In this document: positions 39,983 to 42,528 of the stretch, piece by piece
Numbering within the stretch: the first letter of the stretch is position 1
Layout: the number at the start of each line of letters is the position of its first letter
NCBI GenBank assembly: GCA_000817105.1
Contig: JUEP01000002.1
Location: 103,157-167,156 of the forward strand
Length of the DNA stretch: 64,000 bases
From: a marine actinobacterium MedAcidi-G3
GTDB taxonomy: Bacteria > Actinomycetota > Acidimicrobiia > Acidimicrobiales > Poriferisodalaceae
Reading direction: 5' to 3'
The notes under the pieces: model-generated
The model's database searches: none
Told to the model about the DNA's origin: nothing
The model's input: the letters and a program-made list of their open reading frames with translations, nothing else
Made by a program: the position numbers and the translations under genes

Positions 39983-40981
39983 CTATCTAGGGTCCGATTC
40001 TTCGGCTTCACTTGCGCTACTCGATTCCAATTCTGCGTTGGTGTCGCCTATCGGGCGCATGGCCTCAGCGATTCCCGTTACAGCTCCCAACACTCCGCTG
40101 AATTCTGTTGGAACGATGATCTTGGTTGCTTTTCCATCAGCGATTTGGGTTAAGGCTTCAATGTATCGGACCGCCAAAACATCACTTGTCGGGTCGCCGT
40201 CGTGAATAGCTTGGAAGACTTGTCGGGTTGCCTCAGCCTCTCCCGCTGCAACAGTTTGTAGCTGGTAGCTCTCGGCTTCGGCGACGGTTCTTAGTGCTTG
40301 GGCCTCGCCTTCAGCAGCAAGAATTGCGCTTTGCCGCTGGCCTTCTGCTTCAAGGATTCGTGATTGTTTGTCGCCTTCGGCTCTGGTGATTTCTGATTCC
40401 CGGAAACCTTCTGCTTCGGTTACGGTTGCGCGTCGTGTACGTTCCGCTTTCATCTGCTCGTGCATCGCTGCCATTACGTCGGGTGGCGGGTCGATGCGTT
40501 GAATTTCGACCCGAACAACACGAACGCCCCATTTGTCAGTGGCTTCGTCAAGTATCTCGCGCAAAGCTGCGTTTATACGGTCGCGGGAGGTTAAGGCTCC
40601 GTCAAGCTGCAGGTCGCCTACAAGGTTTCTCAAGTTGGTCTGGGCAAGTTTGGTTATAGCGAGAACAAAGTTCGCAATGTTGTAGACGAGGCGTTGTGGG
40701 TCGGTTGGTTCATAAAACACCACAGCATCTACAGAGACAACGACATTGTCCGATGTGATTACTTCTTGAGGTGGGACGTCTACGACTTGTTCTCGCATAT
40801 CGACGCGCCGGATGGTGTCGATGAAGGGGATAATGATCTGAAGACCAGACTCTTTGGTCTCTTTGTACTTGCCAAGACGCTCAACAATGCCGCGTTCGTA
40901 GGGTCGGACTATTTTCACGCCAGCGACCAAAAAGAGGATAACGACTAGGCCGATGACTGCTAGGAGAACGTAAATGAACAT
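39983..40981 (-). CDS. SPFH/stomatin-like protein (QmcA/HflC type)
   Basis: 332 aa. The N-terminal membrane anchor is residues 1-22 (LLAVIGLVVILFLVAG), then a band-7/SPFH domain (IVRPYERGIVERLGKYKETK through RVEIQRIDPP) and a long coiled coil (EAEGFRESEITRAEGDKQSR and on). Bacterial stomatins organise membrane microdomains and pair with NfeD proteins; the preceding gene is exactly that, overlapping by one base (TAATG). Confidence 0.94.
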   Translation of the reverse strand: MFIYVLLAVIGLVVILFLVAGVKIVRPYERGIVERLGKYKETKESGLQIIIPFIDTIRRVDMREQVVDVPPQEVITSDNVVVSVDAVVFYEPTDPQRLVYNIANFVLAITKLAQTNLRNLVGDLQLDGALTSRDRINAALREILDEATDKWGVRVVRVEIQRIDPPPDVMAAMHEQMKAERTRRATVTEAEGFRESEITRAEGDKQSRILEAEGQRQSAILAAEGEAQALRTVAEAESYQLQTVAAGEAEATRQVFQAIHDGDPTSDVLAVRYIEALTQIADGKATKIIVPTEFSGVLGAVTGIAEAMRPIGDTNAELESSSASEAEESDPR

Positions 40982-41451
40982 TATTTCTGTCCTTCGTTAG
41001 AGGTCGCGCGAACAACCAATCGCGTACCGCGTATCTCGATTATCTCAACGGTGGAGCCTGAGTCGACAGGGCCATGATCCGAAATAGCTCGCCACTGCTC
41101 ACCTCCGACTTTAACCAGCCCGGAAGATACTGGGTCAGCCGGAATATCTTTCAGAGTCATCCCAAGGACGCCGATTAAACGATCATGACCAGCACCAGGG
41201 GGTGATTGCATCGCTGCCATAGAGGCACGGCTTTTCCGCCAAAACAGTGAAAACAGTACTCCTCCGAGAACGACGAACACGATCCAGTCGACTAGGAGAG
41301 GCGCTCCCATGAAAGCCAGCACCATGGCGACGCTGGCACTGATCCCAAATGGAATCAGAATAAAGGTTCCCGCAACAAACATTTCTCCGGCGATGAGGAC
41401 GCCAGCGATTGCTAACCAGATCCATCGCCAAGTATCGGGGGTTAGGTCCAT
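40981..41451 (-). CDS. NfeD-family membrane protein
   Basis: 156 aa. About three membrane helices (WIWLAIAGVLIAGEMFVAG, GISASVAMVLAFMGA, DWIVFVVLGGVLFSLFW) precede an OB-fold domain (~90-150, LIGVLGMTLKDI...GSTVEIIEIRGTRLVVR). This is the short, protease-free NfeD class that works with SPFH proteins. Ribosome site AAAGGA 4 bases before the ATG. Coupled to the downstream stomatin gene. Confidence 0.92.
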   Translation of the reverse strand: MDLTPDTWRWIWLAIAGVLIAGEMFVAGTFILIPFGISASVAMVLAFMGAPLLVDWIVFVVLGGVLFSLFWRKSRASMAAMQSPPGAGHDRLIGVLGMTLKDIPADPVSSGLVKVGGEQWRAISDHGPVDSGSTVEIIEIRGTRLVVRATSNEGQK

Positions 41452-41506: not shown

Positions 41507-42154
41507 TTATTTTTTGCCTTCTTTCTCCCGAATCTCTCGGTAGTGATCTAGCGCTTTTTGGTATTGCTCTACTTCAACGGCACCCGAAATCAAAAACCTG
41601 TTGTCAATAACAACTGCCGGAACCCCGTTAACCCCGTTTTGGAGGGCTTCGTTGTATTCGTCGAAAACCTGTTTCTTAAAGGTTTCTCCGTTGGTTGTTT
41701 GAACCCCTTCGAATGCCGCTTTGTCTATTTCGGACTCGTCAGCAATTTTCAGTAACTCGTCTGAGCTTGAAATGTCACGGTTCTCAATGAAATAGGCCTT
41801 TAGTAAATTACGGTGATACCGCTGCCATGTCTCTTGACCGAACGTAGCTGCTGTTTTGCTAGCTATAGCGGCTGGCAGTGAGTGCGATGGTGGCGGACTT
41901 TCGCCTGACCATGGGGTGATGAATTCGGCTCTGGGTTCTAGACCTGCGGGACGTTCCCAGCTTTTGGTGTACTCCGTGAATTCTTGCAGCGTTCTTGATT
42001 CGGGTTGGGGTCTCAATAGAAATGATTTCCATTCGATGACGATCGAGTTGCCTTGTTGTTTCTCTAACTCTTCAAGGCGCACCGCCCCGACCCAACACCA
42101 TGGTCAGAGATAGTCGGACCAAACGGTTATTTGAACTGCATCTGAAGTCATCAT
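41507..42154 (-). CDS. FrnE/DsbA-family oxidoreductase, probable selenoprotein (UPWC; UGA read as Sec)
   Basis: Read from ATG 42154 with TGA at 42104-42106 as residue 17, the protein is 215 aa. The N-terminus ITVWSDYL-U-PWCWVGAVRLE is the thioredoxin-fold opening of FrnE-type DsbA proteins, whose normal form is SDxxCPWCxxG. The rest matches the family: SHSLPAAIASKTAATFGQET, LLKAYFIENRDISS and the cis-Pro region GVNGVPAVVIDNRFLISGA. Only the first redox Cys is replaced. A plain annotation would start at GTG 42082 and lose strand 1 and the active site. Start overlaps the DUF2237 stop (TAATG). A nonsense mutation is the alternative; the SECIS-like hairpin argues against it. Confidence 0.8.
42072..42090 (-). 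promoter_or_regulatory. Bacterial SECIS-like hairpin
   Basis: On the minus strand, bases 14-32 after the UGA form UCGGGGCG-GUG-CGCCUUGA: an 8-pair stem (U-A, C-G, two G-U, then four G-C/C-G) closed by a GUG triloop at 42080-42082. The loop begins 22 bases after the UGA and has G as first loop base, both as in bacterial SECIS elements bound by SelB. The stem also encodes conserved protein, so some pairing could be fortuitous. Confidence 0.68.
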
Positions 42155-42528
42155 TAGGAGCTTAGGTCGTCGTCCTCGGCGTGGGCTTGAAGGTCGGACA
42201 AGCTAGCCCATTCAAGGGTTGCAATGTGGGTGGCTGCCAATCGAACTTTTGGCGCAGCGCCTGCTTCGAACGCTTCCTGCCAGCGAGGAGCACACAAGCA
42301 CCATGAGTCACCATCTTTTAGACCCGCAAACCCTAATTCTGGGTGAGGTGTACTTAGGTCATTACCCACGCTTTTGGAAAATTCCAAGAATTCATCAGTA
42401 ACAACGGCACAAACGGTGTGCACTCCCATGTCACCAGGCCCGGTGTTGCAGCATCCATCTCTGTAATAACCAGTGAGGGGGTCTCGACCACACTCTTCAA
42501 GGTCTGTACCTAGAACATTTTTTGCCAT
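42154..42528 (-). CDS. DUF2237 family protein
   Basis: 124 aa with the family's features: KNVLGTDLEECGRDPLTGYY at the start, the Cys-rich DGCCNTGPGDMGVHTVCA, and SWCLCAPRWQEAF. Function unknown; the conserved cysteines suggest redox or metal chemistry. It is coupled by a one-base TAATG overlap to the selenoprotein gene, so the two are translated together. Confidence 0.9.
   Translation of the reverse strand: MAKNVLGTDLEECGRDPLTGYYRDGCCNTGPGDMGVHTVCAVVTDEFLEFSKSVGNDLSTPHPELGFAGLKDGDSWCLCAPRWQEAFEAGAAPKVRLAATHIATLEWASLSDLQAHAEDDDLSS

Follow-up and report, generated by a model that had tools for sequence, protein, structure and literature searches.

A predicted selenocysteine-containing FrnE/DsbA-family protein, with an in-frame UGA at its first active-site cysteine, in a marine acidimicrobial genome

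In proteins with a CxxC-type motif the first residue attacks and the second resolves, and selenocysteine (Sec) has a lower pKa than cysteine and is a faster nucleophile. Among the DsbA-like proteins, COG2761 is taken here to be the FrnE group. DsbA-like members of COG2761 with a UxxC motif and a predicted SECIS were reported in 2005 from the Sargasso Sea metagenome (nine sequences; PMC1088965), in what is the sole paper found that joins COG2761 with a selenoprotein. Related entries are the GOS selenoproteins 'DsbA 1' (63 sequences, UxxC, more abundant in marine samples) and 'DsbA 2' (PMC2398784), the 'DsbA-like protein' (PF01323, UxxC) of two reviews (PMC9312934, PMC13188914), 45 DsbA-like selenoproteins in 41 organisms (PMC5029168), four in a further survey (PMC1794560) and two in Asgard archaea (PMC11227280), together with a Sec-containing FrnE oxidoreductase in Mamiellophyceae green algae (PMC6627142). 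For the FrnE of Deinococcus radiodurans (DrFrnE), a C-terminal CX4C motif has been proposed to regenerate the protein, and some FrnE proteins are also without it (PMC8945050).

The locus described here lies in a window of 64,000 nucleotides (G000:C27:103157-167156; the whole stretch of DNA that was analysed) of a 2.11 Mb MAG that comprises 32 contigs and is 88.55% complete. Its main features are the following:

41507..42154, minus strand: gene for a predicted FrnE-type selenoprotein of 215 aa, active site U17-P18-W19-C20 with Sec17 predicted; assigned by PF01323 DSBA and by solved FrnE structures
42104..42106, minus strand: in-frame UGA at residue 17, predicted to encode selenocysteine; same codon in 31/31 close-match genomes
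42154..42528, minus strand: DUF2237 gene (PF09996, 180 bits), overlapping the frnE start by one base

The frnE frame reads MMTSDAVQITVWSDYL-TGA-PWCWVGAVRLE... and ends in TAA after 215 residues, with TGA 42106-42104 (residue 17) as the sole internal stop of the frame 42154-41507. An earlier note on this DNA had proposed the extended N-terminus ITVWSDYL-UGA-PWCWVGAVRLE, with the UGA at the first Cys of CPWC and an ATG overlapping the DUF2237 stop; re-reading of the minus strand confirmed both, the ATG (42154-42152) sharing one base with the stop TAA (42156-42154). The immediate context of the UGA is thus ITVWSDYL-UGA-PWCWVG, and the protein carries a UxxC motif (U17-P-W-C20), whereas without read-through the ORF would comprise 191 aa from GTG 42082 and lose the active site. 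The read-through protein scores 94.4 bits against PF01323 DSBA (cut-off 25.6), and no NCBIfam model is above its cut-off for it. From the ORFs of at least 100 aa in the window, 67 without overlap were picked mechanically, and five of these can be extended through a TGA; no motif was recognised by eye in the other four, no further Sec gene was found among ORFs of at least 100 aa within the 64 kb, and tRNA and Rfam scans of the window gave no match.

The frnE protein finds a match in 75 of 99 related genomes searched (source genome included), some of these matches being weaker, short and stop-free. With matches at E 1e-40 or better counted as close, residue 17 is covered in 31 genomes, each of which has TGA at the UPWC position; in a 32nd (G005) the contig ends before this residue, and a weak match with several stops (G023:C18, E 6e-4) was excluded from the TGA counts. 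Two public records (L082, L083) are among the close matches with the same TGA, and the nearest named relatives are an Acidimicrobiaceae MAG at 81% and, next to it, an Acidimicrobiales MAG at 78%. Since the TGA is kept in 31/31 close-match genomes, a chance origin of this codon is excluded. Random stops, which the earlier note had named as a refuting sign, are not seen in the 29 close relatives read, none of which has another in-frame stop before the gene end; a TAG flagged in one of the sequences (L026) proved to be the genuine stop at the gene's end. Among 246 genomes drawn from the phylum, only the source genome and G278 reach E 1e-25, the latter with a Sec-FrnE carrying UPWC (L097, G278:C359:14886-15506; 45% identity) in a different class and with selA in the same genome, which points to a wider spread or transfer.

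The in-frame UGA aligns with a Cys of homologues, with conserved sequence on either side, and the Cys/Sec exchange at residue 17 anticipated by the earlier note is apparent. Six Cys-type relatives of the FrnE/DsbA kind (L086-L091, from records titled Myxococcales, Myxococcota, Deltaproteobacteria or 'bacterium') are 38-41% identical over most of their length and carry a Cys codon at the same CPWC position in 6/6, although the segment following the site reads NASR..L instead of the VGAVRL of the window protein. CPWC with a Cys codon is likewise found in 5/5 relatives from Armatimonadetes or Capsulimonadaceae (L092-L096, 23-27% identity), and in 8/8 fetched stop-free matches from the genomes, with TGT or TGC. 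Among the best 120 of 252 database relatives, the 82 that reach the site all have Cys at both positions, 17 others with 45-60% identity do not reach it, and the 21 with at least 60% identity lack the active site because their sequences start past the UGA (21/21), which bears out the truncation by automatic annotation that had been predicted.

A quick tree was built from 30 Sec and 63 Cys rows, leaving out 25 near-identical Cys rows and the 38 truncated ones. This tree, which is unrooted and has long branches, requires four Sec/Cys changes, three of them forced by well-supported branches. Sec rows group together and enclose some of the Cys rows, a pattern that fits one gain and several reversals in a tree that cannot be rooted. 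The Cys-type rows that group with Sec rows are P0021, P0028, P0031, P0032, P0036, P0041, P0043 and P0061; these eight, some on long branches, are possible Sec-to-Cys reversals.

The selenocysteine genes selA, selB, selC and selD, whose absence from the genome the earlier note had named as refuting, are all found. selA (404 bits, cut-off 268) adjoins selB (312 bits, cut-off 242), and their contig also carries, at a distance of about 15 kb, a tRNA-Sec (66.3 bits, gathering 47), called by ARAGORN as tRNA-SeC with anticodon tca (UCA). The selD gene (L080, G000:C2:23649-24584, minus strand; 347 bits, cut-off 125) has an internal TGA in HGAG-U-ACK, and SelD is therefore itself a predicted selenoprotein; selD is above cut-off in 31 of 41 genomes searched, with a TGA inside in 24 of these 31.

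UGA genes and the Sec machinery were compared across genomes. TGA-bearing matches of any FrnE/Rv2466c-like group are present in 46 of the 99 genomes, among which selA and selB are above cut-off in 45 each and tRNA-Sec is found in 39, all of these being raw counts over related genomes, uncorrected for kinship. The seven TGA genomes that show no tRNA-Sec, for which the search across genomes used stricter filters, are 74-92% complete and all have selA and selB; in G093, neither selA nor selB is above cut-off, with a tRNA-Sec and a selA piece of 244.6 bits present. Within the 41 genomes searched for it, selD is above cut-off in 22/25 TGA genomes and was not found above cut-off in G003, G016 and G022. 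By the same raw counting, the 20 of 99 genomes without selA, selB and tRNA-Sec contain no TGA-bearing match, while nine of them have a stop-free one.

A candidate insertion signal lies shortly after the UGA:

42072..42090, minus strand: predicted SECIS hairpin, stem 42090-42084 with 42078-42072, loop 42083-42079 (GGUGC), conserved G25-U26

With positions numbered from the U of the UGA, RNAalifold applied unprompted to 29 aligned genes returned a 7-bp stem (17-23 with 29-35) closed by a five-base loop, in which the GU is invariant in all 29 genes, with G25 in the apical loop. Pairing reaches 97.0% of cells, as against 31-56% when the partners are slid by 1-3 columns. GU, AU and GC are all seen at pair 22-30, and a single genome has a swap to CG at pair 21-31; this is the sole two-sided change, and covariation is modest. 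Among 500 shuffles, the observed covariation score was reached by 4, the paired percentage by 5 and the two-sided swap by 18. Across 25 of these 29 genes, codons +4 to +12 show the highest synonymous constraint of 207 nine-codon windows (excess identity 0.270); six of the next seven windows start between about -1 and +6, and the peak is not isolated, since one lies at +189 (0.251). Gly23 is present in 24 genes, 22 of which use GGG for it. Mean folding energy over the 29 genes is -9.3 kcal/mol compared with -5.1 kcal/mol for synonymous recodings, 17/29 genes falling within the best 5% and 12/29 outside. Taken as a single sequence, the window hairpin is not significant against dinucleotide shuffles (z -0.81 with 37/200 as good for 50 nt; z -1.43 with 19/200 as good for 35 nt), and that of a second frnE-type gene of the genome (L002) is no better than shuffles (z +0.32). 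The aligned genes nevertheless support a predicted SECIS stem-loop directly 3' of the UGA, inside the frnE ORF. The Sec-containing FrnE of Mamiellophyceae, likewise named as an oxidoreductase, differs in being eukaryotic; in eukaryotes the SECIS lies outside the ORF.

Sec genes in the genome, Cys/Sec exchange and the SECIS-like hairpin all support the proposal of a probable UPWC selenoprotein of the FrnE/DsbA family. Selenium in the FrnE active site is very likely because the UGA replaces the reactive Cys and the genome carries the Sec genes; on the evidence of the sequences, UGA 42106-42104 is, with high probability, read as selenocysteine to give a 215-residue protein with a Sec-Pro-Trp-Cys active site. 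Alternatively, the UGA might be an ordinary stop, with a working product of 191 aa from GTG 42082 and the upstream part a leader or relic. Such a 191-aa ORF is indeed open, and close database relatives are annotated from an internal start, but the protein sequence before the TGA is kept while synonymous codons vary, an in-frame ATG or GTG precedes the TGA in each of the 29 genes read, the strongest synonymous constraint sits immediately after the TGA, the short form would miss both the CxxC site and the opening strand of the fold, and no TGA match occurs in the 20 genomes devoid of selA, selB and tRNA-Sec. A functional stop at this place is thus very unlikely, and with the frame conserved on both sides of the TGA in 31/31 close-match genomes, an ordinary stop or a pseudogene was set aside. 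The GTG, eight codons past the UGA, could also suggest that the UGA acts mainly as a selenium switch, yielding active protein with selenium and an inactive, perhaps regulatory 191-aa form without it. This internal start is not conserved, however, because 9 of the 25 subset genes use GTA, GTC or GTT for the conserved Val there, and a switch as the main role is highly improbable.

Every test supports read-through, as would be expected also if a suppressor or reassigned tRNA placed Cys or Trp at the UGA. Genome-wide reassignment of TGA is ruled out because it is a normal stop in the window, terminating 20 of the 67 mechanically chosen ORFs of at least 100 aa. The genome also has tRNA-Sec (tca), selA, selB and selD. 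Moreover, a local hairpin is required for Sec insertion and unneeded for global suppression, so that insertion of Cys or Trp has very little probability. Finally, the source is a draft genome of 32 contigs and its named relatives are metagenome assemblies, in which a one-base sequencing or assembly error would be conceivable; the same TGA is nevertheless present in 31/31 close-match genomes, including L082 and L083, which makes an error at this codon practically negligible and, with the same codon across many assemblies, rules it out for the family.

Two further residues are relevant to the function of the predicted selenoprotein:

42095..42097, minus strand: Cys20 codon, predicted resolving cysteine, the protein's sole cysteine
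41618..41620, minus strand: codon of Pro179 (GVPA loop), taken as the presumed cis-proline of the fold, thioredoxin type, and invariant in a 27-sequence alignment

A structure model, computed with Cys substituted for Sec from 61 sequences, has a mean pLDDT of 96.3 and displays a DsbA-like thioredoxin fold with the CPWC position after the first strand, where the predicted Sec replaces the first Cys. Residue 17 stands immediately before helix 18-37, and Pro179, presumably with the cis-Pro role common in the family, precedes strand 180-183. The five best PDB matches of the model by E-value are all D. radiodurans FrnE (E ~1e-11, TM 0.73-0.75 by query length). Further proteins of the DsbA superfamily come next, among them 2in3 and 3kzq with higher TM-scores; DrFrnE is also the best PDB match by sequence (E 5e-14). 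DrFrnE (DR_0659; PDB 5cnw, 5cp1, 5xwh) shares the WSD-x-x-CPWC motif with the window protein, in which the first Cys is a predicted Sec, and is likewise a predicted cytoplasmic DsbA-family oxidoreductase (PMC8945050). The two are 24-25% identical; DrFrnE differs in its Cys at the Sec position and in a C-terminal CX4C, which is missing from the window protein because C20 is its only cysteine. Rv2466c-type DsbA-family reductases (PDB 4nxi, 5xur) belong to the same superfamily and are also of CPWC type but form a different subfamily, and the window protein matches an Rv2466c-like query only over residues 1-53 (E 2e-4).

These data are compatible with a mechanism in which SelB carrying Sec-tRNA(UCA) would bind the hairpin (loop 42083-42079) and insert Sec; without selenium, translation of frnE would end after 16 residues. 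Sec17, at the N-terminus of helix 1 of the thioredoxin fold, would attack disulfides in its substrates, either proteins or small thiols; the mixed selenenylsulfide thus formed would be resolved by Cys20. Given that the window protein is without the C-terminal CX4C, an outside thiol system would be needed for its regeneration. As the protein starts almost at the first strand and no signal peptide is visible, it is most likely cytoplasmic. By analogy with DrFrnE, it is most likely a cytoplasmic dithiol reductase/isomerase that would act in oxidative or disulfide stress.

The same genome holds other genes of this superfamily with an in-frame TGA. The second frnE-type gene (L002, G000:C26:27251-27802, plus strand) encodes a protein 27% identical to the window FrnE, with a TGA in WSDFL-U-PWC, and is the source-genome member of a distant FrnE group (23-31% identity) whose members have one TGA each as listed. 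The place of the TGA was read in L002 and in 8 of the 31 others, 7 of these 8 showing UPWC and the eighth (L104) ending unreadably at a contig edge; the remaining 23 were counted from the listing. An Rv2466c-like DsbA-family gene (L119, G000:C3:6992-7588, minus strand) has a TGA in FWVDPI-U-PWCW followed by a predicted stem-loop, and two weak TGA matches (L107, L108) both carry UPWC and are Rv2466c-like as judged by the PDB match of L107.

Concerning the gene neighbourhood, DUF2237, linked in the excerpted text of PMC5932025 to phototrophy and phototaxis, lies directly upstream of frnE in genera g1 and g7, at 9/9 loci that could be tested, the source locus among them; a further two are cut by contig ends. 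It is absent from this place at all 17 other same-subfamily frnE loci (at least 890 bases upstream), so that a conserved partnership with FrnE was rejected and no functional claim is drawn from the adjacency. Two genes downstream of frnE (39983-41451, minus strand) resemble, by eye, an SPFH/stomatin and NfeD-like pair.

The window protein agrees with the published description of the COG2761 DsbA-like selenoprotein in its Pfam family, in the position of the predicted Sec at the first active-site Cys, in a SECIS predicted past the UGA and in widespread Cys homologues, and the excerpted text of that report names no acidimicrobial member. The earlier note had considered this gene group undescribed as a selenoprotein in this lineage: for the group this does not hold, the COG2761 UxxC type having been reported in 2005 (PMC1088965, as excerpted), and for the lineage it stands as far as titles and abstracts go. 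A search on Acidimicrobi with selenoprotein or selenocysteine (titles and abstracts, outside subscription papers and supplements) found no description of these genes, one on FrnE and selenoprotein nothing describing them in the acidimicrobial lineage, and those on Actinomarina with selenoprotein and on Rv2466c with selenocysteine no paper.

The product of the window frnE is therefore a further, well-supported predicted DsbA-like UxxC selenoprotein, of the type reported in 2005 from ocean DNA; what is new is the acidimicrobial assignment, together with the second Sec-FrnE and the Rv2466c-like Sec gene of the same genome. This supplies a bacterial lineage (Acidimicrobiaceae/Acidimicrobiales, as judged from record titles of the nearest named relatives) for a kind of selenoprotein known since then from ocean metagenomes, provides in a dense Sec/Cys series with its hairpin a test set for actinobacterial SECIS rules, and exposes a recurrent annotation error, by which close FrnE relatives among the best 120 of 252 start past the UGA and miss the active site. 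More tentatively, it is possible that acidimicrobial actinobacteria run a selenium-based branch of cytoplasmic disulfide reduction, in which each genome would encode three or more Sec-containing reductases of the DsbA family (two of FrnE and one of Rv2466c type, all U-P-W-C) along with a Sec-containing SelD; this set would have been hidden by annotation truncation and may have reverted to Cys several times within one clade.
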